From the IMG/VR virus record IMGVR_UViG_3300009175_000061, positions 1-29,119 of that record: a stretch of 29,119 bases of DNA. One strand, written 5' to 3'. This DNA is from a virus. A model generated the notes under the pieces. It searched no databases, was not told the DNA's origin, and worked only from the letters and a program-made list of their open reading frames with translations. The position numbers and the translations under genes were made by a program. Below are positions 72 to 18,754 of the stretch, in pieces (the stretch's first letter is position 1; each line of letters starts with the position of its first letter).

Positions 72-434
72 TTACAGCACCAGCCGGAACTTGAGCAGGC
101 CGCTTTCGACGGCGATGGCGCGGGCGATGACATGCTCACCCTGTTGCACACCGGCGCTGAGCTTGCCGTTTGTCGACACCTTCAGATCGTCACCGGCCTG
201 AATGGTGCCGTCGAACACATCGGTCTCGTAGACGCCGCCGTTACAGTAGATTCCCGGCATATCGCCGTCTTTATAATCCCTGGCGAGAATGCCAAAACTC
301 TTCAGCGCGGGATCGATGTTGACGGCGAAACGGTCGTTGCCGATTACCCGGACAACTTGCCCAAGCGCGCCCGCGCCTTGCAGCGTGCCGTCGCCGTAGC
401 TCAACCCCTGATGGACGGGGGTAATATAGGACAT
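72..434 (-). CDS. Probable head decoration protein
   Basis: A 120-residue protein starting at an ATG with the strong signal AAAGGAG eight bases upstream, 20 bp after the protease/scaffold gene. It is rich in Gly, Val and Asp with a predicted all-beta look. The C-terminal half, with AGDDLKVSTNGKL followed by an alternating hydrophobic stretch (IARAIAVESGLLKFRLVL), resembles the small beta-barrel decoration/stabilisation proteins (lambda gpD-like or DUF2190-like) that sit on the capsid surface. There is no signal peptide or membrane segment. Size, composition and position between protease/scaffold and the presumed capsid gene support the role. It could be another small head protein. Confidence 0.55.
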   Translation of the reverse strand: MSYITPVHQGLSYGDGTLQGAGALGQVVRVIGNDRFAVNIDPALKSFGILARDYKDGDMPGIYCNGGVYETDVFDGTIQAGDDLKVSTNGKLSAGVQQGEHVIARAIAVESGLLKFRLVL

Positions 435-454: not shown

Positions 455-1024
455 TTAGGCTTGCGCCCGCGCGATGCGCTCGTCATAGGCTTGCTGGAAC
501 CCCCGCTTTAGCTGGTCCTCCAGCGATTCATTGCGATCATCCACGTCCAGCGGACGCACGCCGGCATCGGTGCGCAACGGTGCGGTGGCCTGGTCGGCAG
601 CCCTGGTCTTGTCGCAACCACAATCGGCTTTGTCAGCCTTGTCCGTCGTGTCGGCTTTGCCGGTCATCGATTGCGTCATACGCCCATAGGCGGCTTCGCT
701 GGCGGTAAACGCCTCGTCTGATAGCCCGGCCAGCCGGGTGATCTCGGCGTCCTTCTCCTCGTCGTTGCCGAACTTCAGTCCCTGGCGTTCCAGTTTGCGC
801 ACCAGCGCCTGCGCTTTCGCGCGATTGGCGGCGGCTTTCTGTGCGGCCAACAATTCGTCGACTTGCTTCTGGAGATCGAGCACCTGCTGTTTCAGTTGCT
901 TGTTCTCCTGCTCCAGCACTTTGAGTTGCGCTGCAGGGTCTGCCGGGGGCGTACCGCCCCCGGCGGGTGGGGTAGTTTTCTTGGCGGCGTCGCTGTCAGC
1001 CGCGTCGCGGATCGGTTCGTCCAT
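455..1024 (-). CDS. Nested in-frame scaffold protein (internal start)
   Basis: Codon 989 of the 1177-residue fusion is an ATG preceded on the minus strand by GGAAGGAGACACA, a near-perfect ribosome binding site with AAGGAG at good spacing. Initiation here would give a separate 189-residue protein beginning MDEPIRDAADSD. It would contain the Pro/Gly-rich linker, the coiled coil and the acidic/basic C-terminus, but neither the methyltransferases nor the protease. This copies the classic arrangement in which scaffold is made from an internal start within the protease gene (lambda Nu3 inside C). The site lies exactly at the protease/scaffold border. The signal is seen in the sequence; use of the start is inferred. 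Confidence 0.65.
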   Translation of the reverse strand: MDEPIRDAADSDAAKKTTPPAGGGTPPADPAAQLKVLEQENKQLKQQVLDLQKQVDELLAAQKAAANRAKAQALVRKLERQGLKFGNDEEKDAEITRLAGLSDEAFTASEAAYGRMTQSMTGKADTTDKADKADCGCDKTRAADQATAPLRTDAGVRPLDVDDRNESLEDQLKRGFQQAYDERIARAQA

Positions 1025-3988
1025 TGTGTCTCCTTCCGGGATGTCGGCCCCGTGCGAGGCCACCTGAGTGATGCGGGCGTTCTCGTCGGCACCTTTACGG
1101 TCGAGTAGACCTAGACCGCTGAACGTCACGCCATGCAGGATTTCGTAGACGGGCTGCCCCTGAAAATCGCCGCCCTTGTATTTGCGTAGGTGCAGGCAGT
1201 AGTCGTTCTTTGAGGCGGCGCGCTTGCCGCAGACCGAGCATTCGCCTTCCGTGTAATCGCACTCCATCGACACCTGCGCGATAATGCCGGACTTCATCAG
1301 CCGATAGGCCAGTTGCGCATTGGGCGCATCCTGGACGTACAACTCGCCGACGCACTCGACGCGACCGCCGGTTTCATCCTCGATATAGTCCGAGCCGACG
1401 ATACCGCCGACGATATCGGTGACATCCTGCGAGTGCTGCAGATCGACTTTCTTGTTGACTGCCGTCACATAGCGGCTGGCCAGTTCCTCGGCGGTGAAGT
1501 GGTCGCCATTTTTGTTCGTGCCCACCCGGCAGAGAATGCAGGTGAAACGCGGATCGCCGGAACCAGGCGCAGTCGCCTGGCCTTCCGTCGAGAGCCGGAT
1601 GTCCACCGGCAGGCTGGTATGGCAATTGGCCGGGCGATGATCGGCCTGCGCCGTTTTCGCCGTCTGGCGCGGCTTCGAAGATACGAAGAGCAACTCCTTC
1701 GCGAATTGCCCGCCGGTGCCATAGGTGCGCGCCATGTTGTACTCCACCTCCATGGCTTTCCGGCGCACCAGCCCGTAATGCTCGGCGAAGATACGTTGAA
1801 TGTCCGCTTCAGCGGGAAACGCTTTATCGCGATACGAGAGCAGCACCGTGTCATACTTGCCGCGCGACTCACGGGCGAGCGATGCCATCATTTCCTGCAT
1901 CGACTCACGTGTAAAAGTGGTGCGCGAGGGATAACTCCGGCGGCCATTGTCGAGAATCTCCTTGTCGGCCCAGCGATTCATCAAGCCTTCGACGAAATGC
2001 AGGTCGTTCTCGTAATCGTTCCGATTGAACTCGGTGATATACGGCGGATCGAGATAGAGCGCATCGGCGCCGACCTTTTGCACCGCCTCTACCGCGTCGA
2101 GATTGGTCGCTTTGCACTCCTGGCCATTATCAAAGACCAGGCTGTTGAGCCGTTTGGCGGTCTTCCGGAAGGTCGCCACGAACTCGGATACCGGCACATT
2201 CGTCAACTGCGAATTGCTCAACCCGGCCTCCGTCTCCAGCTTGTCGGACGTAGCTTTAGCGAAGTCTGAGGACGCCTTGCTATTCTTCTTCGAACGGTTG
2301 AACTGCCCGAAGGCCGACTTCGCCTTGACCGTGGTGCCGAGCGTCGCCAGTGCCAGATCTTTCTTGTAGCCAGGCAGCTTCTGGATGTTTGCCCACACCT
2401 GATCCAGCCACGCCAGCACCGGCTTACTGTAGTAGTAGCCATGGAAGGTGCGCACGATAAAATCACCGGCGTCGGCATTCGGCGCGAGGATGCGCTCGAG
2501 ATCGCCATCGCTGAGCGTCTCGTGGCTGTTCTCGACCACCGCGCGCGCCAGGTGATAGGGATAGCGCAGCAGGTCATTGGCGACCACTTTCAGCCCCTGG
2601 CGTTTGAAGTGGTAGGCGACATTCGCCCCGCCGCTGAACGCGTCCAGGATGGACTTCGCCTCCTTCGGCACCTGCCGGGCGATCCAGCCGAGCATGACGT
2701 ATTTCGAACCCATGTAGCCGGTCACGCGCACCGGGTCGTCATCGGCTTTACCGGCCATGCAGGACAACAATTCCAGGTCATCCAACTCGCCGGAAGCTTC
2801 CAATTCCTCCGCATCCTCATCGGCCTTGGCTTGCGTGCTGGCATCATGGGCACAGATGAACAGGTACTCCTTGGCATCGGACGCATCGCCATGTCGCGAG
2901 GAGATCGAGTAATGATGGTCGTGCGAGCGCAGGCTGACGCCTTTGCCGGCATCAGCAATGATCTGGCGCATCTCCGTTTCATTCGGATAGGCGTGATCGC
3001 GATAGGAAATTAGCCAGTGCGGGATCTGCTTGGCGTTCGCCAGGAACGCGGCGAAGAAGGCATTCGCGTTCGCCTTGGTCACCGTCTGGTGGTCGGTGAC
3101 GTAGTGATGGGTCTTCGTGTCCTCTTTGATTTCCAACCCGTCCCAGTAGCTCATCAAGCCTTCGACGAAGTGATACGACTTCTCGTAATTGGTGGTGCTG
3201 AACTCGGTCGCATACGGCGGATCGAAATAGGCGAGATCGGTTTTGACCTCGGGCAGCAGCGCGTTGATATCCTTCTGATTGGCCTTGCATTCCTTGCCGT
3301 TGCTGAACACCAGCGCATTTATGCGCGCCACGTTTTTGGCGAAGCGCTGCTTGAATTCATCCGGCGTATCCTGCCGCTTGCCGTAATCGGTGCTGCTGGA
3401 GAAATGCCCGAAGCCGCCTTTACCGCTCATGCAGGTCTTGCCGAGGGCAAAGAGCGCGATGTCTTTCTTGTAACCGGACAGCGTGTCGATGTTGGCACGC
3501 ACCTGGTCGATGATGGCATGCACGCCGTTGGCGAAAAACAAGCCTTTGAAGTTATCCTGCACGAAGGTGGCTGCTTTCCCATTCGGCTGCAGCAAGGCAT
3601 TCAGTTCTTCACTGCTGATACGGGTGTCGTCATTCTCCACGATGGCGCGCGCGGCATGATAGGCGTAGCGCAGCCGGTCATTGGCGACGACGCGCAACCC
3701 TTTGGTCTTATACATGTAGGAGACCACCGCCGAGCCGGAGAAGGCATCGCACACCGACGCCACGCCGTCCGGGGTGTGCTTCCAAATCCACTCGACGAGT
3801 TTCTGCTTGCTGCCGATGTAATTGGTGACATATTTCGGACGCTCGCCTTCCGGGAGTTCCTCGGTGGTGATGTCAACCGGCGCTTCCTGCGCGGCTCCCT
3901 CGGCGGTGAGATCGAGGAAGCACTGCAGGTCGGCGTCGGCTTCCAGCAGGAAGGCCAGGCGTTCTTGATCAGTGGCAAAGAGATGCAT
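455..3988 (-). CDS. Fusion: two tandem D12-class adenine methyltransferases + prohead protease + scaffold
   Basis: A single open frame of 1177 residues. Methyltransferase 1 (about 52-380) has YIGSK at 57-61, a SAM-binding DAFSGSA near 81-87 and catalytic DPPY at 256-259. Methyltransferase 2 (about 420-770) has YMGSK at 425-429, DAFSGGA near 449-455 and DPPY at 647-650. The two copies share many blocks, for example VVAND-LRY, GYKKD-ALA, ECKA and HFVEGLM, so they arose by duplication; both keep their catalytic motifs. Residues about 808-985 resemble a His/Ser prohead protease, with H852 in VDLQHSQD and S907 in VSMEC as candidate catalytic residues. A zinc-type C917-x2-C920-x10-C931-x-H933 cluster follows. 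Residues about 1018-1070 are a Gln/Lys/Leu-rich coiled coil, as in scaffolds. The start has GAAGGA upstream. Promoter-like element 4029-4072 lies just ahead. Methyltransferase class is confident; protease catalytic residues are inferred. Confidence 0.85.
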   Translation of the reverse strand: MHLFATDQERLAFLLEADADLQCFLDLTAEGAAQEAPVDITTEELPEGERPKYVTNYIGSKQKLVEWIWKHTPDGVASVCDAFSGSAVVSYMYKTKGLRVVANDRLRYAYHAARAIVENDDTRISSEELNALLQPNGKAATFVQDNFKGLFFANGVHAIIDQVRANIDTLSGYKKDIALFALGKTCMSGKGGFGHFSSSTDYGKRQDTPDEFKQRFAKNVARINALVFSNGKECKANQKDINALLPEVKTDLAYFDPPYATEFSTTNYEKSYHFVEGLMSYWDGLEIKEDTKTHHYVTDHQTVTKANANAFFAAFLANAKQIPHWLISYRDHAYPNETEMRQIIADAGKGVSLRSHDHHYSISSRHGDASDAKEYLFICAHDASTQAKADEDAEELEASGELDDLELLSCMAGKADDDPVRVTGYMGSKYVMLGWIARQVPKEAKSILDAFSGGANVAYHFKRQGLKVVANDLLRYPYHLARAVVENSHETLSDGDLERILAPNADAGDFIVRTFHGYYYSKPVLAWLDQVWANIQKLPGYKKDLALATLGTTVKAKSAFGQFNRSKKNSKASSDFAKATSDKLETEAGLSNSQLTNVPVSEFVATFRKTAKRLNSLVFDNGQECKATNLDAVEAVQKVGADALYLDPPYITEFNRNDYENDLHFVEGLMNRWADKEILDNGRRSYPSRTTFTRESMQEMMASLARESRGKYDTVLLSYRDKAFPAEADIQRIFAEHYGLVRRKAMEVEYNMARTYGTGGQFAKELLFVSSKPRQTAKTAQADHRPANCHTSLPVDIRLSTEGQATAPGSGDPRFTCILCRVGTNKNGDHFTAEELASRYVTAVNKKVDLQHSQDVTDIVGGIVGSDYIEDETGGRVECVGELYVQDAPNAQLAYRLMKSGIIAQVSMECDYTEGECSVCGKRAASKNDYCLHLRKYKGGDFQGQPVYEILHGVTFSGLGLLDRKGADENARITQVASHGADIPEGDTMDEPIRDAADSDAAKKTTPPAGGGTPPADPAAQLKVLEQENKQLKQQVLDLQKQVDELLAAQKAAANRAKAQALVRKLERQGLKFGNDEEKDAEITRLAGLSDEAFTASEAAYGRMTQSMTGKADTTDKADKADCGCDKTRAADQATAPLRTDAGVRPLDVDDRNESLEDQLKRGFQQAYDERIARAQA

Positions 3989-4028: not shown

Positions 4029-4072
4029 CCCAACCGTTACATAAACGCTGGAAGCGCAAAGTGACGATAAAA
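4029..4072 (-). promoter_or_regulatory. Promoter-like bipartite element, copy D
   Basis: Read on the minus strand, TCGTCACTTT is followed by nine variable bases and then CGTTTATGTAACGGTT, ending about 40 bases before the fusion-gene start at 3988. It matches the elements at 17745, 18737 and 27918 in both halves and in exact spacing, but is the most divergent: the leading ATGAC is missing, and AGCG replaces ACCG. A T-rich stretch lies upstream. It sits in a 293-bp gap (3989-4281) after the small gene at 4282, where no convincing gene was found. It probably drives the protease/scaffold, decoration and capsid genes separately from the terminase-portal unit. Confidence 0.7.
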
Positions 4073-4281
4073 ATCTGGGGTATTTTGAGAAAAGTTCGAA
4101 AAAAGTCGATCCTGGAGATAACGCAACGTGTCCGACTGACCAAGCCTTGTGCAGAGAATACGTCGATGTAGCACTTCAGGATAAAGAGCGATGGACGAAA
4201 CACACCAAAGCGACAACGCCGCTTCTCGGTAGAACCGGAAACAGCGTTGCGTGTGCATGGTATGGTGTGAGACGAAGGGTG

Positions 4282-4656
4282 TTAGGAGGCTGGGGACGGT
4301 AATGGCGGATCGCCAAGTGGCTTTCCAGCGGTGATCAGCGTCAATACGTATTCAGCGACATCATCCACATTGCCGGCGTCGGTGGCATAGACCGGGGAGC
4401 AATCACCGCGATAGAGCGAGATGCGCCCCTGCCATTGTTCCAGAAAATCCACCGGCAACGCGCGTTCACCCTGCTCGATGAGATCGTTGATGATGCCGTC
4501 GGCGATGGCCTGGGCGTCCTCATTGCCGGGCACATACCGCATGACGATATCCAGGCCCAGTCCGGGACCATGCGCCCACACGCCGATAGGCTCGAAGTAT
4601 GCATGCCCGTTCGTGTCCCGCCGCATGGCGTATTCGATGAAGTAGCGTACCCGCAT
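4282..4656 (-). CDS. Small protein of unknown function
   Basis: A 124-residue protein beginning MRVRYFIEYAMRR. The ATG at 4656 was chosen because GGAGGAG lies nine bases upstream and it avoids overlapping the neighbour's stop at 4662; a GTG at 4677 would add seven residues. The protein is acidic, with no signal peptide, membrane helix or recognised motif. Alternating short hydrophobic stretches suggest a compact alpha/beta fold. It is the last gene before promoter-like element D and lies downstream of the giant Mu-F fusion. A role as partner or immunity protein of that fusion is possible from position only. No family was recognised. Confidence 0.6.
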   Translation of the reverse strand: MRVRYFIEYAMRRDTNGHAYFEPIGVWAHGPGLGLDIVMRYVPGNEDAQAIADGIINDLIEQGERALPVDFLEQWQGRISLYRGDCSPVYATDAGNVDDVAEYVLTLITAGKPLGDPPLPSPAS

Positions 4657-4661
4657 TATGC

Positions 4662-5099
4662 TTACTCCTCCGGCCACGTGGCCGCGATCTGTCGATGTTC
4701 CTCATGCAACGCCGCGTCGATGCTCGCGAACAGCGCCTGCTCACGATCTCGAAACGCCTGCCATGCTTGCCAGACCGCCGCTTCATCCGGTTCAGTGATT
4801 GGCTCGATGGCTTCAATATGAAACTGTCGACCTCGCTCGTCCACCAGATCGATCTCCAACGGTGGATCGTCCGACGACCAGCGCACGACGTTGATGGTGT
4901 GAACGAACTGCCATCCTTCCTGGTAGCCGACGCTCCAGAGCGTCACCCAGACGGCAGCCGCGTCATCAGCGACGCGGGTAATCTCCAACCGCGCCTGTAC
5001 GCCGAGGCGCGTGTAATCACCGTCGGGCCAGAAGATACCGAGCCAGCAGCCCACGGTGTTCAGATGTTCCAATACGGTTTTCAGTGCTTCAAGGGTCAT
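4662..5099 (-). CDS. Small acidic protein of unknown function
   Basis: A 145-residue protein starting MTLEALKTVLEHLN at an ATG with GTGAGGA upstream, 18 bp after the Mu-F fusion. It is strongly acidic and Trp-rich. Residues about 20-100 look like a beta-rich core, and the C-terminal 45 residues (WQAWQAFRDREQALFASIDAALHEE) look helical. No motif, signal or transmembrane segment is seen. It is in one operon with the Mu-F fusion and the next small gene. Small acidic proteins behind toxin-like proteins are often immunity factors, but nothing in the sequence proves that here. Confidence 0.6.
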   Translation of the reverse strand: MTLEALKTVLEHLNTVGCWLGIFWPDGDYTRLGVQARLEITRVADDAAAVWVTLWSVGYQEGWQFVHTINVVRWSSDDPPLEIDLVDERGRQFHIEAIEPITEPDEAAVWQAWQAFRDREQALFASIDAALHEEHRQIAATWPEE

Positions 5100-5117
5100 A
5101 GGAAGTCCTCACCTGAG

Positions 5118-8100
5118 TTAATGTACGACAATCACCTGCTCCACCGTGCGCCCATCCGGGAGTTTGCTAATCCCGTGCTTACGAAATACCTCAAGGAGGG
5201 CTTTTTTTCGCTGGTTGCCATTCACGACGATCACGTCGATATTGTCAAGCAATGTCACCGAGTTTTTGAAGATGGTTTCATTGCCGCTTTTGGCATGAAT
5301 CTTTTTCCAGGCGCTCACCGTGCTCTGCCGGTGCTCCTCCACATAGCCTCCGATGACTTTCCCGAACGCATCGTGATCGTAGCTGATGGCGTCCATGCGC
5401 CGGATCATCTCGATTTTGAAATAGAAGCCTTCGGAAGCTGACGTATCACGGCCTGGATGTTTCGCGATACGGGTAAAGCAGTAGCTGGCCCCGCCGGTAT
5501 TCATATCCTCCACCGGCGACATTCCGCCGACCGGGACGCCGACACGCATTTTTTCCACCGTACTCACCATCGCGCCGTTATTGGAGAGCATGGTATCCAC
5601 CAGTGTGGTGATATCGTTGCTGTTGGTGACATGATGTTTGAGCGCGAACCCATCCAGTTGACGCCGTATATCCGCATCGGAGAGATCGAAGCGCAATTGC
5701 TGGCGGTAGCCCGCCTTCGCACCGTGATCCAGGTAGCCCAACTGATAGACACCGTGGGGGTCGTATCCGGGCAGTTTCGTTACATCGGCCACCCCCAGCT
5801 TCGCGCCCCAGTAGGTCCGCAGCGTATTGACGCGCGTCGGTGTATCAGCGCTGCGCGCATCGAGATCAGCCAGCAGTTGCCGGTAGGGTGATTCCTTGTG
5901 CTCCAGGCTCAGATAGGCTTGCTTGTGCAGATAGAGCAACTCCATCTCTTCCGGGGATGCCACGCGCGCCGGGATGCCCACCTGCTCCATCATTTCCATC
6001 GCGCGGTCGATGGCCTTCGCCGCCGGCTTGTCCGGCAAACGCAATTCAAATTCCCCGCGCTGGGCGAAGAGGTTCTCGCCGGTCCACGGACGATAGACCG
6101 CATGCATGCCGTCACCGAAGTCGATTTCGTATTGCACGCCGCTTTTCCCACCCCCATGCAGCAAGTCACTGAGCGACGCGGCATCATTGACCACGGTGAG
6201 TTCGCCATGCTCGATTTGCTTTTTCGGCATGCGCACGGTGCTCTTGGTCACCGTAAACGCGGAGGCTTTTTTACTCTGCCTGGGCGCGGTGGCGACGAAC
6301 TGCGAGAAGGCAGGTAGTCGATCCGTACTGCGATTCGCCACCGACACTTCGATCTGTCTCAAGGTATCGAGGTAGTGCCGGGCCATGGCCTGGATATCCG
6401 GTTGCTTCGACGTGAGGAGTTTTTCCATATCCGCGCGTACCGCAGCGGCTCCCTGGATTTTCGCAAGGTTATACTGCCCATCGCCGAGATGATGATTCAC
6501 CGTCTTCACGCCTTGCAGAATGGCGTCGTAAAACGTGTCTTCCGGCAACGGCGACCCCACCTGTACCGTGCCCCCCGCGCTCAACGCTTGTTGAATCGCC
6601 TTGAGTAAGGGACGTTCCGCGTCGGGCCGCACTTTCATGCGCATGACCGTGCGCGTGCTGGTCGCGCCGCGCGCCCCCTTCACCTGCTCGGTGTAGATCA
6701 GCAGGTTCTGATCCTCTACCATATCCGTATCGAAGGGGATGGCTTTCCCCTGGTAGCCGAGTTTCGAAATGTCGGTCGTGATCTCATCCACCATCGCCTG
6801 CGGCAAGCGCGTAAAATCTTTCCTTCCGAGGAGTTCGAAGGAGAATTTGGGATCTCCCAGGATTTCCCGATAGAGCGTTTCGAAATCCTGGCGCAGACCA
6901 TGTTTGCGTTCGAGCGCCGCGTCATAGAATCCCTGTAATCCTCGCGCATCACCGACAAAACGACGCTCGGCATAGGAGCGCAGGATAGCCAGGTACTCGG
7001 CATCGGGCAGCGACTCCACCCGTTCGATGGTCGCCAGCGTGTGCGACGGGTCGAGCTGGAGCTTGCCGGTCTTCGCGGCGTGCAGCATATCGTTGTAGAG
7101 CGTGCGCGGATGCTGTCCGGTGGCGTTCGGGTTGTAGCCGATGTCGAGGCGATCCCGTCCGAAATACTTGAACGCTTGTGCCCGATCAATGCCGACGATG
7201 CGCCCGTTGGACAGGCGCAGGAAGTTTTCGGCATGCGCGTCATGATTGGAAAGCAGCCAGTCGATGACCTGCTGGTGTTGGAGTTGCGCCTGTTCCTCGG
7301 GGGCAATGGTGTTCACGGCCACGCCTTCATAGTTCGACTGCGCAAGCAACCCCGTCTTCATCCTCTGGATGGTCCCGCGCTGCCCGTGCATACTGACGGC
7401 GCGCACTTCCACCGCATCGGGATCGAACAGGCGAGCGACGTGATAAGTCATTTCATCCCCATGCGCCAGAAACTCCTCCGGCATCGGCTTGAAGAGCCAT
7501 TCGTTGCCCTCCGGATCGCAATAGATCTGTTTCGCATGCACGCCGCCCAGGTCTTTGGCATCCTTGACGAAGGTGAAATGCCCTGACGGATTGGCGGTCA
7601 CTCGTGTCCATTGCGCATCGACCGACACGAAATCAGGACCGGCCACCACCGGCGATGGAGGTGACGGGGCAACCGGCATTGCCGCTTTGACTTTGGCCGC
7701 CTGTTGCGCGCCATGTCCATAGCCGGCAACCTTGGCCGCCAAGGCGTTCGAGACCTCACTGACCTTCACCGGATCGGTTTCCGACATGAGGGTGATGAGG
7801 TCATCCTTGGTGGCGAACGCCCAGTTTTTGATCTTCTTTTCTTTGGCGATGGCTTTAAGATCGGTGAGCTTCAGCCCCGACAATTGCTGTTGGAAGGCCG
7901 CTTTCTGCTGACTCAACTTCTTCTGCACCGTGGCGATCTGCTCGGGGGTCAGGTGTTCCGCCTGGCTGATGAAGGTCGAGGTAGCATTTGAAAATGCTTG
8001 CAGGAACGATTCATACTGTTCGGGCGCCATCGTGCCCGGCATCGCGTTGACCGCCGCCGTGATCGTATCGACCGCATGCTGCTGCGCGACTTGCGCCGCC

Positions 8101-10115
8101 TGCGCGGCCGCTTCCTGTGCGGCTTTGTCCGCCGCCTTCTTCGCCGCACTCCCCCCAGCGGCTTGCTGGAGTTTCCACTGCTGCCACTTCGCCTCGATGG
8201 CATCCCTGGCCGCTTGTACGGCAGTCGGATCGGTCTCCGACATGAGCGTCACGAAATCACTTTTCGTCGCCCACTGCCAGTGGGGAATCTTCGCGTCCTT
8301 GGCCAGCCCCTTCAGATCATTCGCGGAGAGCGCGGACACCTGCTGCTGGAAGACAGCTTTCTTCAGCGCCAGTTCCTGCGCCGCTTTCTCCAGTGCGGCT
8401 TGCGGTAAGCCGTTGCTCGTGGCCAGCACCTGCTCGGCGGACTGCAATGCCGCCAGAAAATCGGGAAAGCCTTGCGGGGATGCTGGCAACACCACTTTGA
8501 GCGTGGCGTCGTCGAGCGCCTGTTGCGCGACTTTGAGCGCCGACTGTTGCGCCGCGTCGATAGCGGCCTGCTTTGCGGCGTCGCCCAGCTCCTGCCCGGC
8601 GACCTTTTCGATGGCGGCGATCAGTTGCCCCTTATTCTTCAGCGGGCCGATGTGGAACTGCTTCTTCGCGGCCATGAGCGCCTGCCCGGATAGCCCGCTG
8701 TGATCGACGTCCGGCTCCAACTGGTCGAGCAACGCGATGACATCGGCCTTGGTCATATTGAGGGAGACACCCTTCTTTACGGCCAAATCCTGCAAGTCTT
8801 TCACCGTCAGCGAGTCCAGACCGGTAGCGGTCTGCTGTGCAGCGTGCAATAGTTCGGCTTGCAGTTTCGCCTGGAGAAAGACGGCCTGTTTGGCGGCAAG
8901 GAGTTGTACAAGTTCGTCTTTCGAGCGCAAGGCGCCAATGGCATATTGCTTGAGTTTCGCCTCCAACGCCTTCCCGCCAAGACCGCTGTGATCAATCCCT
9001 GGTTCGGCGAGATCAAGCAGGTAGTGGAAGTCCGCCTTGGTGCGCGCGATAGCAACCCCCTGGCCTTTTGCCAGCGTCTGCACCTGCTTCATGGTGAGCG
9101 CGCCAAGCTTCGTGGGATCGCCGCCCTCGAAGGCCGCCTTGAGGGTCTTCTGCTCTTCAACTTGGGCTGCGGCCATGCCCTCGATACTCTGCGGCGGCAG
9201 GATGCACGCATCACCGATGCTCGGAGCGGCGCTGGCCGCCAACACGCCTTGCCCGCAAATCACCAACGGCCAGGCCGGGTTATGCCCGCACCGGCATTGC
9301 GGATGGGCCGGCTGCGCGGGAAACTCGTCGATGGGGTACTGCCGGCCATCACGCGGGCCGCAGACCGGGCAGACCCGCTCGTCATCCATGGTGAACCATT
9401 CCAGCCGCTGGATGCCGACCGCCTGGTGGAATTTGAGCTTGCCGAGGTTATGCGCGCGCAGCACCTCGGTGCGGGCAATCACCTCCATGCGATATTGCGC
9501 CTTGCTGAACACCTTCGTCCCGGCATGGCGGAAGGACTCCTGATCTTTCACCACCTCGCCGAGATCGCGCACGATGTCATCCACCCCTTTGCCGGTGGCG
9601 ATGGCGCCGCGGATGGTCCGCATGATGCCATCGGTCGTCTCCCGGTTCACGTCACCCGCCAGGGTGGTGGTGTAATTCGCCAGGAAATCCAACGCATCGG
9701 TATCGACGATATGTAACGCCCTGGTGGTGAGCTTGTCCAGGCCATCCGGCGTCAGGTCACGATAGACCGGCAACTGCGCGGTGGCGAATTCCTCGATGCC
9801 GTGGTTAACCCCGAGCCGGAAGGCGGCTTTGGCTTCCGTGCGGCAGCGGACGGTGTGCGACCGTTTAAGCCCGCTCATGATGGATCTGATCTCGGTGTCC
9901 AGCCGTTCCAGTCCCTTCAATCCCGCCAGCTTATTGTCCGGCAGGGAGCCAAGAGACTTGTACCGTAAGATGGCCACGCCCACCTGCTCGCGCGCGGACG
10001 CCAGCTCATCGGTAAGATCATTCACCACTTGCTCGACATAGCGATTCCGCGCGTCGAGGCTCCGCGCGACAGCCTGGCGAATCAACTCGTGTTGTGATGC
10101 GGCTTCGACCGGCAT
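5118..10115 (-). CDS. Giant Mu-F head protein fused to helical repeats, a kinase-like domain and an unassigned C-terminal domain
   Basis: 1665 residues; the ATG follows AAGGGG, 11 bp after the portal. Residues about 90-280 are a Mu gpF-like domain: ARTEVLRAHN at 214-223, then C249-x2-C252 and H271-x2-C274-x-C276, a likely metal site. About 335-790 hold at least four SAP/HeH-like units, for example LTVKDLQDLAVKKGV (436-450), LSANDLKGLAKDAKI (596-610) and LKLTDLKAIAKEKKI (748-762), separated by Ala/Gln-rich helices. About 840-1095 look like a PI3/4-kinase or HipA-type fold: candidate ATP lysine K876 in WLFKPM, catalytic-loop-like NHDAHAEN (957-964) and GIDRAQAF with D977. About 1290-1665 are unassigned; the tail (GGMSPVEDMNTGGASYCFTRI, 1530-1550) looks like a compact enzyme or toxin domain. 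Polymorphic Mu-F toxins are a known class. Mu-F is confident, kinase fairly so, C-terminus unknown. Confidence 0.85.
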   Translation of the reverse strand: MPVEAASQHELIRQAVARSLDARNRYVEQVVNDLTDELASAREQVGVAILRYKSLGSLPDNKLAGLKGLERLDTEIRSIMSGLKRSHTVRCRTEAKAAFRLGVNHGIEEFATAQLPVYRDLTPDGLDKLTTRALHIVDTDALDFLANYTTTLAGDVNRETTDGIMRTIRGAIATGKGVDDIVRDLGEVVKDQESFRHAGTKVFSKAQYRMEVIARTEVLRAHNLGKLKFHQAVGIQRLEWFTMDDERVCPVCGPRDGRQYPIDEFPAQPAHPQCRCGHNPAWPLVICGQGVLAASAAPSIGDACILPPQSIEGMAAAQVEEQKTLKAAFEGGDPTKLGALTMKQVQTLAKGQGVAIARTKADFHYLLDLAEPGIDHSGLGGKALEAKLKQYAIGALRSKDELVQLLAAKQAVFLQAKLQAELLHAAQQTATGLDSLTVKDLQDLAVKKGVSLNMTKADVIALLDQLEPDVDHSGLSGQALMAAKKQFHIGPLKNKGQLIAAIEKVAGQELGDAAKQAAIDAAQQSALKVAQQALDDATLKVVLPASPQGFPDFLAALQSAEQVLATSNGLPQAALEKAAQELALKKAVFQQQVSALSANDLKGLAKDAKIPHWQWATKSDFVTLMSETDPTAVQAARDAIEAKWQQWKLQQAAGGSAAKKAADKAAQEAAAQAAQVAQQHAVDTITAAVNAMPGTMAPEQYESFLQAFSNATSTFISQAEHLTPEQIATVQKKLSQQKAAFQQQLSGLKLTDLKAIAKEKKIKNWAFATKDDLITLMSETDPVKVSEVSNALAAKVAGYGHGAQQAAKVKAAMPVAPSPPSPVVAGPDFVSVDAQWTRVTANPSGHFTFVKDAKDLGGVHAKQIYCDPEGNEWLFKPMPEEFLAHGDEMTYHVARLFDPDAVEVRAVSMHGQRGTIQRMKTGLLAQSNYEGVAVNTIAPEEQAQLQHQQVIDWLLSNHDAHAENFLRLSNGRIVGIDRAQAFKYFGRDRLDIGYNPNATGQHPRTLYNDMLHAAKTGKLQLDPSHTLATIERVESLPDAEYLAILRSYAERRFVGDARGLQGFYDAALERKHGLRQDFETLYREILGDPKFSFELLGRKDFTRLPQAMVDEITTDISKLGYQGKAIPFDTDMVEDQNLLIYTEQVKGARGATSTRTVMRMKVRPDAERPLLKAIQQALSAGGTVQVGSPLPEDTFYDAILQGVKTVNHHLGDGQYNLAKIQGAAAVRADMEKLLTSKQPDIQAMARHYLDTLRQIEVSVANRSTDRLPAFSQFVATAPRQSKKASAFTVTKSTVRMPKKQIEHGELTVVNDAASLSDLLHGGGKSGVQYEIDFGDGMHAVYRPWTGENLFAQRGEFELRLPDKPAAKAIDRAMEMMEQVGIPARVASPEEMELLYLHKQAYLSLEHKESPYRQLLADLDARSADTPTRVNTLRTYWGAKLGVADVTKLPGYDPHGVYQLGYLDHGAKAGYRQQLRFDLSDADIRRQLDGFALKHHVTNSNDITTLVDTMLSNNGAMVSTVEKMRVGVPVGGMSPVEDMNTGGASYCFTRIAKHPGRDTSASEGFYFKIEMIRRMDAISYDHDAFGKVIGGYVEEHRQSTVSAWKKIHAKSGNETIFKNSVTLLDNIDVIVVNGNQRKKALLEVFRKHGISKLPDGRTVEQVIVVH

Positions 10116-10126
10116 GATTCAGCCCC

Positions 10127-11620
10127 TTACTTCCGGTCGAAGAACCGGCAGGCACGCGCCGCAAACGTCGTCTCATTCCGTTGCACCGCGCAACGATTCT
10201 CCGCGTCCTCGAAATGCCGGCACTCGTCACAGATGGCGTCATCGGCAAAGGCGCGCGCGGCGGGACCACCGAGGGCCAGCGCTGCCGCTGCCGCCGGCGT
10301 GGTGCTCTTCGGCCCCAGCCCCAGAAAACTCCGCGCTTCATCCACGTCGAGCACACCGAGCGTAACCATATCGACGATGGGCTTGGCCTGCTTCTCGTCG
10401 AGCACGTCGATGCCCGGTTTTTCCTGCGCGCGGTTGGCCGCCTCGACATCCGGGTCCAACTCCATCTTCACCTGCAGGCTGGAGCGGGAGATGAGTTTCC
10501 GGTCGTAGAGTTCGAGCAGCAGCTTTTTGAGATCGACCGCATCGTTCGGATCGAGGTCGTTAAAGAGATACTGGACGGTGGCATCCTCGTGCCCGCTCAA
10601 GGTGAGCCAGTCATCCACCACCCAGTCGAGCAATTGCCGGGCGATTTGCTTGATTTCACGAATCATCACCAGCATCTTCTGCATGGAGACGGACGCCGTG
10701 GCGAAGTTCGGGCCGTCACCGGTGACCAATGAGCGCGAGAGCCCGAGCCCGACGATGATATCCTCCTTGACTTCCCTCACCTTTTCCTCGACGTTGAGCA
10801 CGCTCCCCTCGGCGCCATGCGTTTCCACCCCGACGTAGAACGGCACCACCAGGCCGGACTTCATGTCCATCTTGTTGACCATGTCGCGAATGTCCTGAAG
10901 CATCTTCTGATCGGGGGTGATGACGCGCTGGTTGAAGGCGCCACCGACCTTGATGAGACGAAACGGCGTGGCCCAGCGTTTGGCGATGGCCTGCTCGGCC
11001 TTCCGGTAATCGCGCAGCAGTTCGATGGACTGGAACGCGGGCAGCACCAGGCTGTTCCCGCGTGGCGAGAATGGCGGCGCATCCCAGCGCAGATGAATCA
11101 CCTGTTCGACTGGCAGCGCCAAACCATCCCCGGCGGCAGGCGCATCCTCGGGATACTGCTGCATCTCCATCAGCGTGCCCTGCGCATACTTCACTTTCAC
11201 CGAGGTGGGATTGACGCAGGTGATCGCCTCGATATCCCGCCCATCCTGGCTGTAGCGTTTATAGCCGACCGCGTCTCCCTTCACCAGCAGTTGCAGGATC
11301 ATGTCCTTGACGAAGGTGGAGAGCGCCAGCCGATCATGCAATGCGCACACGCCTTCTTTTACCGTCTCATCATCGCTGGCGAGCTTGATCTCATCGCCCA
11401 CGGCAAAGCAGCGCCAGGAGTTAACGCAGTTCTTCACCAGCGGTTCCTCGATGTAGTAGGTCCATGCTCGGCGGGCGCGCTCGTCCCAAGTCACCGGGAT
11501 CGGATCGGTGGGCGTGACGCTAATGAACGCCGAGCCATCGATGACGGCGGCGCTTGCCTGCGGGAGCGGCTGCGCGAGCGCGCCGGTGGTCTGTGGAGTG
11601 CGATAGCGTGATTTGGCCAT
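10127..11620 (-). CDS. Portal protein
   Basis: A 497-residue protein starting MAKSRYRTPQ after CAAGGA on the minus strand, 12 bp behind the large terminase. It would form the ring at the capsid vertex through which DNA is pumped. Portal-type features include a central segment on refolded helices (IELLRDYRKAEQAIAKRWATP), the VNKMDMKSGLVVPF stretch, and GDGPNFATASVSMQKML with following helices typical of the clip/stem region. The C-terminus carries an extra cysteine cluster, C464-x2-C467-x9-C477-x13-C491, likely a small metal-binding knuckle not usual for portals. Order terminase-portal-MuF supports the call. Confidence 0.88.
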   Translation of the reverse strand: MAKSRYRTPQTTGALAQPLPQASAAVIDGSAFISVTPTDPIPVTWDERARRAWTYYIEEPLVKNCVNSWRCFAVGDEIKLASDDETVKEGVCALHDRLALSTFVKDMILQLLVKGDAVGYKRYSQDGRDIEAITCVNPTSVKVKYAQGTLMEMQQYPEDAPAAGDGLALPVEQVIHLRWDAPPFSPRGNSLVLPAFQSIELLRDYRKAEQAIAKRWATPFRLIKVGGAFNQRVITPDQKMLQDIRDMVNKMDMKSGLVVPFYVGVETHGAEGSVLNVEEKVREVKEDIIVGLGLSRSLVTGDGPNFATASVSMQKMLVMIREIKQIARQLLDWVVDDWLTLSGHEDATVQYLFNDLDPNDAVDLKKLLLELYDRKLISRSSLQVKMELDPDVEAANRAQEKPGIDVLDEKQAKPIVDMVTLGVLDVDEARSFLGLGPKSTTPAAAAALALGGPAARAFADDAICDECRHFEDAENRCAVQRNETTFAARACRFFDRK

Positions 11621-11632
11621 GGTGAGTCCTTG

Positions 11633-13183
11633 CTAATAGAAAATCGGTGCGGTTAGCAGCGGCAGCACGCAGACCGATTGCGTTTCGCCGAGGTTGAGTC
11701 GTCCCAACTCGCGCACCAGCACGGCGCAGCGCACTGCGTCGATGATGTGGTCGTTGCCCTTCGAGTAGACCACCGCGTTGTTGGTCATCGTATAGGTGTG
11801 CGTGGTGAATTGCTCCTGCAGTTCCAGGTCACCTTGCGGGAAACGAATCTCCCGGCGCTGGAGCATGCCGTTGATGATGGAGGTCATCAGTTCCTTGGTG
11901 CGCTTGCGTATTTCACCGCCATCCGGGGTAGGCAGCGCCGTGACACCACCGAAATCGACCCCGCGCAGACGACCGCTCATGTTCAGCGGACGATAGCCAT
12001 CCAGCGTCAGTAACTCCTGGACCACCGCGCCGCCGTTCCCGCCGTTGTCGATGCCGATGCCCGCCGGGGTGAAATACCGTTCCAACAGCGAGATGAGCAT
12101 GGAGAGTATGGGATACGCCACGTGTTCACAGTGGATGCGCAGCACCAGGCTGGCCACCGGCTTCTCCCCAGCGGCATCCTGGAAGACCACGATCTCCGTG
12201 GGGTCATTCGTATACCCCAGGTCAGCGCCGATCCAGAACACCCCGGCCTGCGGCACCAGATCGAGCAGCGCTTCCAGCAGGTCGAAGGTCTGTGCGTTGT
12301 CCTGGCAGCCGGAGAGATGATCGCCGGTAATGCGCACGGTGCGATACTCGATGATCTCCTGGCAGGCGGCGTCCAGGTGTTCCTGGATGAAGGCGCCGTA
12401 GCTCGGTTTGCCGTGCTCGCCCGACACCTCATGCTGCCAGCCGGCGGTATCTTTCCCGCCATAGAATTCCACCAGTTCCCGCTCACGCTCTTCCGACCAG
12501 GTGGGATTCAACCAAGACGGCCAGCGAAAGACGGTGAACTGCTTCGAACTGGTTAAGCGAAAGTAGGTCGAGTTCCGTAGCCCATTCGGGGTCGAGTAGA
12601 TGCGCAGGCGCCCCCCGGATTTCAGGCACTGGCGCAACGCTTTCCAGGCGGCCTCGGTCAGCCAGGCCCCTTCATCGACCCAGACGCGTTCGACGTGCAG
12701 CGACCGAAACGCATCGCCATAGACGCCCGCGGGCCGGAAATACAGCACCGATCCGGTGATGAACTCGATTCGGTAATACGGCTTCCGCATGATTTTCAGC
12801 TTACCGAACTGGTTAAGCGCCACCAACGCGCGCAACATCTCGCTCGTTTCGATCTGGTAATCGATCTCCTCGATCAGCGAATCGAGATGGCCTTGATGCG
12901 GCGCGGCGATCAGCCCCTGACCGCCCTGGGTCGTGGTGGCGAAGTGCAGCGCATCGGTGGAGAGCACCACGCTTTTGCCGGTGTCCCGTCCATCCAGATG
13001 AATGATGTTGCGCGACGGACAATGGAGATCGAACATCTGATGTTCCCAATAACGACGAGGCGTGCCATCCCGATTGATGAGCACCGCTTCGCCCCACTGG
13101 GCGGCATCCTGCATTACCTCATCGAACAACACGTCATCCACGGGAATGTCGGCTTCGAGAATCCGCGTGACAGCGTCCGTCAT
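11633..13183 (-). CDS. terL: Terminase large subunit (packaging ATPase/nuclease)
   Basis: 516 residues from the ATG at 13183, which sits one base after the upstream methyltransferase stop (TGA-C-ATG), with AGGCAGGG just upstream. A longer open frame reaching 13369 lies inside the methyltransferase gene and was not used. The ATPase domain has Walker A GRDTGKS (65-71) and Walker B VERVWVDEG (164-172, D170/E171). The RNase H-like nuclease has D321 in GADLGYTNDPTE, D379 in GIDNGG and D482 in DHIIDAVRC, the three expected acidic positions. The protein pumps DNA into the procapsid through the portal encoded next and cuts concatemers. The candidate small subunit is not adjacent; the integrase lies between. 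Confidence 0.93.
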   Translation of the reverse strand: MTDAVTRILEADIPVDDVLFDEVMQDAAQWGEAVLINRDGTPRRYWEHQMFDLHCPSRNIIHLDGRDTGKSVVLSTDALHFATTTQGGQGLIAAPHQGHLDSLIEEIDYQIETSEMLRALVALNQFGKLKIMRKPYYRIEFITGSVLYFRPAGVYGDAFRSLHVERVWVDEGAWLTEAAWKALRQCLKSGGRLRIYSTPNGLRNSTYFRLTSSKQFTVFRWPSWLNPTWSEERERELVEFYGGKDTAGWQHEVSGEHGKPSYGAFIQEHLDAACQEIIEYRTVRITGDHLSGCQDNAQTFDLLEALLDLVPQAGVFWIGADLGYTNDPTEIVVFQDAAGEKPVASLVLRIHCEHVAYPILSMLISLLERYFTPAGIGIDNGGNGGAVVQELLTLDGYRPLNMSGRLRGVDFGGVTALPTPDGGEIRKRTKELMTSIINGMLQRREIRFPQGDLELQEQFTTHTYTMTNNAVVYSKGNDHIIDAVRCAVLVRELGRLNLGETQSVCVLPLLTAPIFY

Positions 13184-13184
13184 G

Positions 13185-14309
13185 TCAGCCCTGCCTTTCC
13201 GGCACACACGTTCGTTCTCGCGCAAGCCGTGCATACGCCAGTGCGCAATAGTCGGCGTTGAGTTCGATCCCGAGAAAGCGCCGGCCATGCGCCAGCGCCA
13301 CCATCCCGGTCGTGCCCGCCCCGGCGAAGGGATCGAGCACGGTGGCCGGTACAACCTCGGTCTCGCCACAGGCGCAGGTGGGTTGCCAGCCGACAGTCAT
13401 ACGGCGCGTGACATATTCCTCCCCCTGTGCGCGAGCGGCCTGGCGCAGCAACGCCATGCGGTTCGCGCGGCTGCCCATGCCATAGGCGCTGTCCGTCTCG
13501 CCGTCGTGGGCGGTGACGCTTTGCCGCTCGACCAGGCGCGTCCACGGCACCCCGCACGTCGGACAAACCCCATGCGCCGAGGTGCCGGCGAGCAAGCACG
13601 GCTCCACCAGTCGCGGTGGGAACACGGCGAAATGTGCGCCACGGAACGGTTTGGTGGGGATGCGCCAGACGGTACGCCGATTGCGCCCGGCGGCGTTCAT
13701 ATACGCGCCCATGCAGTCGGATTGCGCCATGTTGTGGGAGTGCTTGCCGCCATACGCCTGTGCGTCACCATAGGGGCTGTGCAGCCCGGAGGTGTATCGC
13801 CGCATCGAATCAGCCATGAGCGGTTCCATGATGGCGTCGGCGTCGTAGAAATATCGTCGCTGCTTGGTGAGCAGGAAGACGAATTCATGGCTGCGCGTCG
13901 GGCGATCCTTCACGCTCTCCGGCAGGCAGTTCGGTTTCTCCCACACGATATCGGTGCGGAGATACCAGCCATCCTCCTGGAGGGCGAAGGCGACGCGCCA
14001 CGGCAACCCCAGCAAATCCTTGGGCTTGATGCCATGCGGAACTCGCTGCCCCGCATTGCCGGCATAACAATCTCCCAGATTGAGCCAGAGGGTGCCGTCA
14101 TCGCGCAGCACGCGCCGCACATCCCGGAAGATGCTCACCAGCGTGGCAACATAGGTCTCCGGCGTGTCTTCGCGCCCGACCTGGCCGGCGACCCCATAAT
14201 CGCGCAGCCCCCAGTAGGGTGGCGAGGTAATGCAGCAATGCGCACTGCCAACCGGCAGCGTCGGCAACACCTCACGGCTATCTCCACACAGTAATTCGTA
14301 TCCCGGCAT
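13185..14309 (-). CDS. Site-specific DNA methyltransferase (TSPPY class)
   Basis: 374 residues, ATG after GGAAGGAAG. It has the catalytic motif TSPPYWGLRDYG at 28-39 near the N-terminus and the SAM-binding DPFAGAGTTG near 326-335 at the C-terminus, the circularly permuted (beta-type) order found in N4-cytosine or N6-adenine enzymes of phages. Between them is an insert with CPTC (249-252) and CAC (312-314), probably a zinc site helping target recognition. No restriction gene is adjacent, so it is an orphan enzyme, likely protecting phage DNA from host restriction. It is tightly joined to terL. Target sequence cannot be read from the protein. Confidence 0.9.
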   Translation of the reverse strand: MPGYELLCGDSREVLPTLPVGSAHCCITSPPYWGLRDYGVAGQVGREDTPETYVATLVSIFRDVRRVLRDDGTLWLNLGDCYAGNAGQRVPHGIKPKDLLGLPWRVAFALQEDGWYLRTDIVWEKPNCLPESVKDRPTRSHEFVFLLTKQRRYFYDADAIMEPLMADSMRRYTSGLHSPYGDAQAYGGKHSHNMAQSDCMGAYMNAAGRNRRTVWRIPTKPFRGAHFAVFPPRLVEPCLLAGTSAHGVCPTCGVPWTRLVERQSVTAHDGETDSAYGMGSRANRMALLRQAARAQGEEYVTRRMTVGWQPTCACGETEVVPATVLDPFAGAGTTGMVALAHGRRFLGIELNADYCALAYARLARERTCVPERQG

Positions 14310-17788: not shown

Positions 17789-18145
17789 TCTCAGGGTCTG
17801 GCGAACTATTTCTTGAAAAATCGCTGTCGGACGCCGATGCCAGGGAACTGACGCCATGCCGTCATGTCATCCTCATCTCGCGATTTCACCTCGGTTCCCC
17901 GCTAACAATGCCCTTGGCTGGAATTCCAGCGAGCGCCTAAAAAAAGTTCCAAAGAATTTTCACCCCACATGCCGCCCATTTCACGCTCGATAGCCCCTGG
18001 CAGATGCCTCCCAGCTATCGTCTCCACGGCCTCCTACCCGCCGTTTCGCTGGGATTCCACCAGATGGAAGTGAGAGGTCGTGCGCTCACTCCCCAATCAT
18101 CCTTGCGCCGTGACGCCGGCCTCATCACCCATCGAGGAGGCCGAC
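17789..18145 (+). other. Upstream region of the sigma-like gene
   Basis: A 357-bp stretch without a supported gene. It contains the perfect 14-bp palindrome GCTGGAATTCCAGC (17917-17930), followed by an A-rich run (17938-17945) and AT-rich sequence to about 17965. No copy of the bipartite element faces the sigma gene, so its promoter must be of another type. A TTGGCT/CTAAAA pair at 17 spacing flanks the palindrome but matches the sigma-70 consensus poorly. The palindrome is a candidate operator. Confidence 0.35.
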
Positions 18146-18754
18146 ATGGCTATCTGGTTTCAGTACTACGACATCGACCCGTACATTGTGCGGGCCATCG
18201 ACCACAAAGTCCGGCATCTGTACGACAAGTACCACTTGACCTGTGATGACCTGGACGACTTGCGCCAGGAGTTGTTTGTGCATGCGCTGCAATACGCGCA
18301 CACCTTCAATCCGCAACGCGCGCAATGGACCACCTTCATCGACCGGCTGCTCAAGAGCGGCATCGCCAACTTCCTGCGGGCGCGTGATGCCGAATGCCGT
18401 TGTGGAGAGAAGAGCGTGCCGTTGTGTGAGGCGGATGATCGGGAGCACAGCGCCGAATACGTGACCGCGTTGGATGGCGTCTATACCGGAACGCGCCTGT
18501 CGCCCGACGGTCAGACGATGGACACCTCAACTGAAGCTATCGATTTGCGCCTCGACGTTGCCGCGATCCTGGCGACGCTGTCTCCGTTGCTCCAGCAGAT
18601 CTGTCGCCTCCTGATGGACGGGGAAAATGTCACGGCGGTCGCTCGCACGCTCGGCATGCCGCGCACTTCCCTCTACTTCTACCTGGATCAACTCCAACGC
18701 ATCTTCGTGGCGCACGGCTTCGATTTTTCTTTGCGAATGACTCGTCACTTTTGA
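18146..18754 (+). CDS. Phage-encoded sigma-70-like (ECF-sized) transcription factor
   Basis: 202 residues from the ATG at 18146, chosen for GAGGAGG five bases upstream; an upstream in-frame ATG at 18080 lacks a site. A region-2-like part (about 34-82) contains DDLRQELFVHAL and RAQWTTFIDRLLKSGIANFLRAR, as in core-RNA-polymerase-binding sigma helices. A region-4-like HTH (about 137-190) contains LSPLLQQICRLLMDGENVTAVA followed by RTLGMPRTSLYFYLDQL, fitting -35 recognition. The middle (83-130) is a linker with a CRC and a nearby Cys. It is the first gene of the rightward unit. Its final codons (RMTRHF-stop) are formed by the first half of element A. The two-domain layout is that of small sigma factors; identity is fairly secure, promoter specificity inferred. 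Confidence 0.78.
   Translation: MAIWFQYYDIDPYIVRAIDHKVRHLYDKYHLTCDDLDDLRQELFVHALQYAHTFNPQRAQWTTFIDRLLKSGIANFLRARDAECRCGEKSVPLCEADDREHSAEYVTALDGVYTGTRLSPDGQTMDTSTEAIDLRLDVAAILATLSPLLQQICRLLMDGENVTAVARTLGMPRTSLYFYLDQLQRIFVAHGFDFSLRMTRHF

Follow-up and report, generated by a model that had tools for sequence, protein, structure and literature searches.

In phage lambda, the protease gene C has the scaffold gene Nu3 nested at its 3' end. In herpesviruses, the long form encoded by the UL26/UL26.5 pair accounts for roughly one tenth of the scaffold (PMC12474303); it cleaves itself, its protease stays in the nucleocapsid, and cleavage at the M site removes 25–37 residues, so that scaffold and capsid protein come apart (PMC12474303, PMC4498786). 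In phage T4, the protease gp21 cleaves behind L/I-x-E and releases internal proteins of the head; prohead proteases of this type work once the prohead has been assembled (PMC9026906). The proteases of SPN3US and phiKZ likewise cut after glutamate in a short motif (PMC9026906, PMC5694885). The Dar proteins of phage P1 reside in the head, and are co-ejected/injected with the DNA (PMC5512222, PMC12810830); one of them, DarB, protects DNA from restriction (PMC5512222, PMC12810830) and combines an EcoKI/TaqI-type adenine methyltransferase with an SF2 helicase (PMC5512222). Here we describe a gene of the IMG/VR virus record IMGVR_UViG_3300009175_000061, a metagenomic sequence of 29,119 bases analyzed in full (the window), in which two D12-class adenine methyltransferases (MTases), a predicted prohead protease and a coiled-coil scaffold are joined in one open reading frame (ORF).

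We suggest that the product is a self-processing scaffold-protease polyprotein, which brings the MTases into the procapsid and frees them there, to be carried to the next host with the DNA. Our estimate of the probability of this reading is roughly 0.58. A packaged methyltransferase, a cargo-freeing prohead protease and a nested protease-scaffold gene are each known singly. In the collections and open papers that were searched, we found no description of a phage lineage that unites the three in a single polyprotein; a fusion of an MTase to a prohead protease was not found in the open literature, which is not proof of absence.

Conservation of the fusion and predicted fold of the protease

The frame of 1177 residues started with ATG and had no internal stop, and both MTases had intact motifs, in agreement with the original prediction made from the DNA alone. 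Pfam MethyltransfD12 (PF02086) matched in two stretches (E 3.6e-44, 151.8 bits against a gathering cut-off of 22). Copy 1 carried the motifs DAFSGSAVV and DPPYAT, and copy 2 carried DAFSGGANV and DPPYIT. The match to the Dam subfamily model TIGR00571 reached 35.1 bits against a curated cut-off of 114.85, and the protein was not filed as Dam. A sequence search for solved-structure relatives of MTase1 returned none at E 1.

Relatives were sought with three queries, the whole protein, its alignment and the protease-scaffold part alone, and well over 100 loci were recovered; with the protease domains clustered at 93% identity, 44 relatives remained. There were 61 distinct closed ORFs with the protease, many of them closely related to each other. 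The original prediction had proposed a homolog search for this domain order, and the results showed at least one D12 domain in 59 of the 61 (two in 32, one in 27). The fusion was also recovered with the protease-scaffold part as the sole query, and no unfused relatives in the lineage were found among the 61. The two ORFs lacking an MTase (L154 and L158) were frame-broken copies with an MTase just upstream, and in two of the 27 one-MTase ORFs (L141 and L146) the upstream frame appeared broken. The breaks in L084/L158, L146 and L154 lay within protease or methyltransferase domains, and reflect sequencing error or decay. An existing database family, PHROG 27806 ('DNA methyltransferase', 798 positions), matched residues 418–1173 nearly end to end. 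Thus, the one-MTase form is already in the database with its protease half unnamed, and the two-MTase form is unrepresented; the family name ignores the protease and scaffold, a missing half that the present reading, if true, would supply.

The DPPY motif was kept in all 122 fused domains examined, with the S-adenosylmethionine (SAM) motif in nearly the same form. Pairwise ratios of nonsynonymous to synonymous substitution rates (dN/dS) were 0.02–0.11 for both MTases and 0.02–0.09 for the protease, the linkers and the tail being looser. Judging by these motifs and by purifying selection, the fused METHYLTRANSFERASES look active. In a maximum-likelihood tree, rooted at the midpoint and with a long branch to the second copies, all second MTase copies formed one fully supported clade and the first and single copies were mixed around it, indicating a single origin of the second copy.

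The protease was recognized weakly by sequence. Of 21 members, 9 gave sub-threshold matches to Peptidase_S78, the best at E 0.0046, and a match to phrog_2774 was found; the Pfam gathering score was not reached, and the domain was not filed under S78. Searching solved structures with the protease-scaffold profile gave just zinc-finger and coiled-coil matches, which we took as chance. A first AlphaFold2 (AF2) model of protease plus scaffold from 21 sequences was poor overall and its fold search uninformative. The protease domain alone, modeled from 44 sequences, gave a mean predicted local distance difference test (pLDDT) of 86 and a predicted template modeling score (pTM) of 0.78. This model matched T4 gp21 (5jbl) at Z 11.1, with 2.5 Å over 126 residues. 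The herpesvirus proteases followed as a block at Z 7–10, above unrelated rows; with Foldseek alone they came out on top with weak E-values. Matches in BFVD included phage G gp19 and many prohead proteases. By its predicted fold, the domain is a T4 gp21/assemblin-type protease and a candidate for cleavage of head proteins. The catalytic His and Ser expected of this type are represented by His852 and Ser907, both invariant among the relatives. A CxxC..CxH cluster within it suggests, by its pattern, a small zinc site. The order that the original prediction had assigned, with the protease and then a coiled-coil scaffold behind the MTases, is borne out by the predicted fold and the coiled-coil matches.

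The nearest annotated relatives of the protease, at about 27–33% identity, were Bacillus phage G gp19, Gordonia phage Pupper gp94, Mycobacterium phage I3 gp103 and a protein of the Streptomyces plasmid pRLB1-9.1, all without a methyltransferase. Phage G gp19 is short (300 amino acids), and the other three have long C-terminal extensions. The plasmid relative (L169, 5854–9327) begins a protein of 1158 amino acids annotated as ParB-family; an HK97-fold capsid gene follows a few genes downstream. Two uncultured phage proteins in BFVD named Ferritin/DPS or Dps (A0A6J5N5R9 and A0A6J5RFH1) also matched the protease fold; thus, fusion to a prohead protease may extend to further enzymes or to DNA-binding proteins.

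Nested start, border motifs and gene neighborhood

A nested start was scored as an in-frame ATG, GTG or TTG with a Shine-Dalgarno (SD) match of at least 6 nt, and synonymous-codon shuffles served as the null. Between the protease and the coiled coil, 41 of the 44 relatives had a conserved SD and start (mean of the shuffles 5.5, maximum 10), a strong signal that the original prediction had overlooked. The linker in this region varies freely, yet AAGGAG or AGGAGG was kept a few bases before an in-frame start. The SD match was 6–8 nt at the nested start; for the main start, in relatives in which it could be located, the match was mostly 4 nt. At the MTase/protease junction, an SD and start were seen in 4 of 44 relatives as against 5.2 expected, no more than chance. 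The absence of an internal start at the junction, as originally predicted, therefore holds for conserved features; the window itself has one such start there, ATG 1735 after GGAGGTG, which looks like chance. The conservation of the nested start and not of a junction start suggests that free scaffold can be made, and that the protease would be made only with an MTase attached.

Candidate cleavage motifs were found at the domain borders. Gibbs sampling of the MTase/protease linkers gave L-[SA]-[ATS]-[ED]-A, and the C-tails showed [LM]-R-[TS]-D-A-G-V-R-P. From these two sets, we drew the pattern [LM]x[STA][EDQSNR][AG], which was present in 36 of 44 MTase/protease linkers (2.8 in shuffles) and 36 of 43 C-tails (2.3). 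Applied unchanged at the borders that had not been used for its design, it was present in 28 of the 37 segments immediately preceding MTase1 (2.4) and in 17 of 27 MTase1–MTase2 linkers (4.2). It was absent from the scaffold coiled coils (0 of 43, with 8.6 expected) and from the protease-scaffold linkers (0 of 44), where a different motif could serve. Just after the MuF domain of the neighboring head protein, a looser form of the motif was found in all 24 distinct linkers (4.2 in shuffles).

In many relatives, a module of about 110 amino acids (WEETxNEIRYRVRDPxxFxxxSFR...GWTxxKAxxWIxxHE) was inserted in the linker of the two MTases or in that of MTase and protease, often directly after a candidate cut site. 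It occupied about residues 384–490 of L005, was present as two tandem copies in L080, was also seen in L072 and L040, and had no Pfam or PHROG match.

The polyprotein ORF lay between the portal and MuF genes on one side and, on the other, the gene of a phrog_673 protein, past which relatives continue with the major capsid protein (phrog_2522). The terminase, portal and MuF genes were on the same strand. This is the usual place for a prohead protease and scaffold. The conserved N-terminal peptide of the polyprotein is possibly a targeting peptide, and the C-tail, by analogy with the herpesvirus scaffold, possibly docks on the major capsid protein. The coordinates of all features are given in the table.

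Features of the polyprotein gene and its neighbors in the window (all on the minus strand; polyprotein residues count down from position 3988)
Feature	Position	Strand	Basis
Whole polyprotein ORF, 1177 amino acids, ATG start	455..3988	-	ORF and relatives
Conserved N-terminal peptide, residues 1–30 (FATDxxRxxFLLEADA)	3899..3988	-	Alignment
Candidate cut site LTAE/G, residues 27–31	3896..3910	-	Motif count against shuffles
MTase1, D12 adenine methyltransferase, residues 51–385	2834..3838	-	Pfam PF02086; DPPY/SAM motifs; dN/dS 0.035–0.10
Weak candidate cut site LEAS/G, residues 396–400	2789..2803	-	Motif count against shuffles
MTase2, D12 adenine methyltransferase, residues 419–772	1673..2734	-	Pfam; motifs; dN/dS; one clade in tree
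Candidate cut site LSTE/G, MTase2/protease, residues 799–803	1580..1594	-	Gibbs motif; count against shuffles
Predicted prohead protease domain, residues 812–980	1049..1555	-	AF2 model; T4 gp21 and herpes fold matches; BFVD; invariant residues
Invariant His852	1433–1435	-	Alignment of relatives
Invariant Ser907	1268–1270	-	Alignment of relatives
CxxC..CxH cluster, residues 917–933	1190–1240	-	Pattern
Internal SD AAGGAG (1030–1035) and ATG (1022–1024), Met989	1022..1035	-	Conserved against shuffles; SD stronger than at main start
Nested scaffold ORF, predicted product of 189 amino acids	455..1024	-	Conserved internal SD and start
Scaffold coiled coil, about residues 1018–1068	785..937	-	High-confidence helix in model; coiled-coil matches
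Candidate cut site LRTD/A, residues 1138–1142, M-site-like	563..577	-	Motif count against shuffles
Conserved C-tail, residues 1142–1177	458..565	-	Alignment
Head protein, 120 amino acids, phrog_673	72..434	-	Upstream of major capsid protein in relatives
MuF head protein with long extension, 1665 amino acids	5118..10115	-	PF04233, TIGR01641
Possible cut site LAASA after MuF domain, residues 292–296 of MuF protein	9228..9242	-	Looser motif
Portal protein	10127..11620	-	Pfam/PHROG matches
Terminase large subunit; true start probably inside	11633..13369	-	Pfam/PHROG matches

In the extension of the MuF protein (residues ~850–1010), the stretch DWLLSNHDAHAENFLRLSNGRIVGIDRAQAFK resembled by eye a HipA-like kinase catalytic loop, and had no Pfam, PHROG or NCBIfam match; in some relatives, the MuF protein was short (about 290–340 amino acids). 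A sigma-factor-like protein (18080–18754, plus strand; phrog_1740, with Sigma70_r2 just under the cut-off) was encoded near the point where head genes on the minus strand give way to replication genes on the plus strand. Neither a tRNA nor an Rfam family was found in the window. Among the tail genes of L006, a protein (4058–5377) resembled a C5 methyltransferase by eye.

Metagenome-assembled genomes (MAGs) labeled Armatimonadota and bacterium ADurb.Bin236 contained matches, which hint at possible hosts, binning of phage contigs being unreliable. Two copies of the polyprotein gene (L148 and L150) lay ~88 kb apart on one 133-kb viral contig, and the ADurb.Bin236 MAG (the source of L092) held several; joined phages, tandem prophages and mixed assembly are possible explanations.

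Proposed mechanism and its alternatives

From this architecture, we infer the following course of events. The weaker main start would yield a minor full-length protein, MTase1–MTase2–protease–scaffold–tail, and the strong nested start at Met989 would yield the bulk of the scaffold with an identical coiled coil and C-tail. The two products would co-assemble via their shared part, with the C-tail probably docking on the major capsid protein, so that each protease molecule would bring one or two MTases into the procapsid. There, the protease would cut at LxxE/A-like sites. Removal of the C-tail would let the scaffold leave, and the protease would also free MTase1 and MTase2 within the head. The freed enzymes would stay beside the packaged DNA, pass with it into the next cell and, before the host restriction enzymes act, methylate adenines in the newly arrived genome. 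The first steps follow from the architecture and the T4 and herpesvirus precedents, and the last from the P1 Dar proteins.

Several points weigh against this mechanism. Cleavage, packaging and activity are predictions from the sequence. A cut site as clear as the others was not found between the protease and the scaffold, where herpesviruses have their R site, and the motif was not evident in the major capsid protein. The motif counts are inflated by the relatedness of the sequences, the pattern was designed after two of the four borders had been seen, and the scissile bond within the candidate sites is a guess. The supply of SAM inside a packed head is doubtful. Finally, the window has a separate, unfused DNA methyltransferase gene (13185–14309, minus strand; N6_N4_Mtase, phrog_67) overlapping the upstream end of the terminase ORF; thus, the fusion is not the sole route to methylation.

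The main competing explanation, which we consider unlikely though well ahead of the others, is that methylation takes place in the cytoplasm of the producing cell before packaging, the fusion merely tying MTase expression to the late head operon and the MTases being cut off early or active while fused. SAM and DNA are plentiful in that cell, and the conservation of the MTases as active enzymes and the candidate cut sites fit this explanation too; but prohead proteases of the T4 type do their work after the prohead has assembled (PMC9026906), the fused product is expected to be minor, given its weaker SD, and late, and the separate MTase gene of the same phage could do the job. It is less probable still that MTases within the procapsid methylate the DNA as it is pumped in and are then trapped or lost. 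Entry into the procapsid is backed by the same sequence evidence as in the proposed mechanism, but a cofactor would be needed inside the shell and a mobile enzyme on tightly packed DNA, and no precedent was found. That the MTase domains serve the scaffold core mainly by binding DNA or as a structural element, and not as enzymes, is very improbable: nearly every relative has them joined to a structural protein, but the invariant DPPY and the very low dN/dS speak for catalysis, and the second domain comes and goes. An assembly error joining separate genes, which the original prediction had named as a danger and which a metagenomic record invites, can be dismissed, because full-length relatives with the same junction occur on many independent contigs and in MAGs, and an existing PHROG spans the junction.

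Delivery of the MTases via the procapsid is thus the reading that we prefer. The original proposal that the scaffold and protease target the MTases into the procapsid, where the protease can free them, gains support from the fusion, the nested scaffold gene, the border motifs and the T4-gp21/assemblin fold of the model. Of its two suggestions on timing, methylation inside the packed head is the weaker; the enzymes more plausibly act as the DNA enters a cell or, should cleavage come early, in the cytoplasm. We can offer a more specific form only tentatively: a lineage of tailed phages would have made a cargo loader of a herpesvirus-like protease-scaffold, with obligatory N-terminal MTases freed by self-cleavage inside the procapsid, so that each virion holds DNA-protecting enzymes in a ratio tied to the protease, and the protease would also free the MuF extension.

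If true, this would be a simple, genetically encoded way of loading enzymes, in which the enzyme is fused to a minor protease-scaffold, the nested scaffold provides the bulk and maturation cuts the cargo free. It would also give phages a route for bringing methyltransferases along other than the P1 Dar system. The predicted cut sites and the free-scaffold start are each testable.

Comparison with known systems

The lambda C/Nu3 genes have the same nested protease-scaffold plan as the phage chain described here, whereas lambda C carries no enzyme cargo and belongs to another protease family. P1 DarB, which the original prediction had cited as precedent, is a functional analogue only, an adenine MTase that resides in the head and is injected (PMC5512222, PMC12810830). 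DarB belongs to another MTase class and carries a helicase (PMC5512222), and is not fused to a protease or scaffold. Since the polyprotein is of the D12 class and no helicase match was found in Pfam or PHROG, it lacks the EcoKI/TaqI-type MTase plus SF2 helicase that defines DarB and is not a member of that family.

T4 gp21 has a fold like that predicted for the phage protease and a short cut motif with an acidic residue before alanine, like the candidate sites, and it frees head cargo (PMC9026906), as the phage protease would. Unlike in the polyprotein, the T4 protease, scaffold and cargo are encoded by separate genes, and the cargo enters via its own capsid-targeting sequence. In comparison with herpesvirus UL26/UL26.5, the phage chain has MTases in front, and its candidate site lies before the protease, with none seen between protease and scaffold. 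The two share a protease followed by scaffold in one frame, a nested in-frame scaffold gene and a similar predicted protease fold, and cleavage at the phage LRTD/A site would remove 36 C-terminal residues, within the range of the herpesvirus M site. The resemblance to UL26/UL26.5 lies in the overall plan and in the predicted fold.

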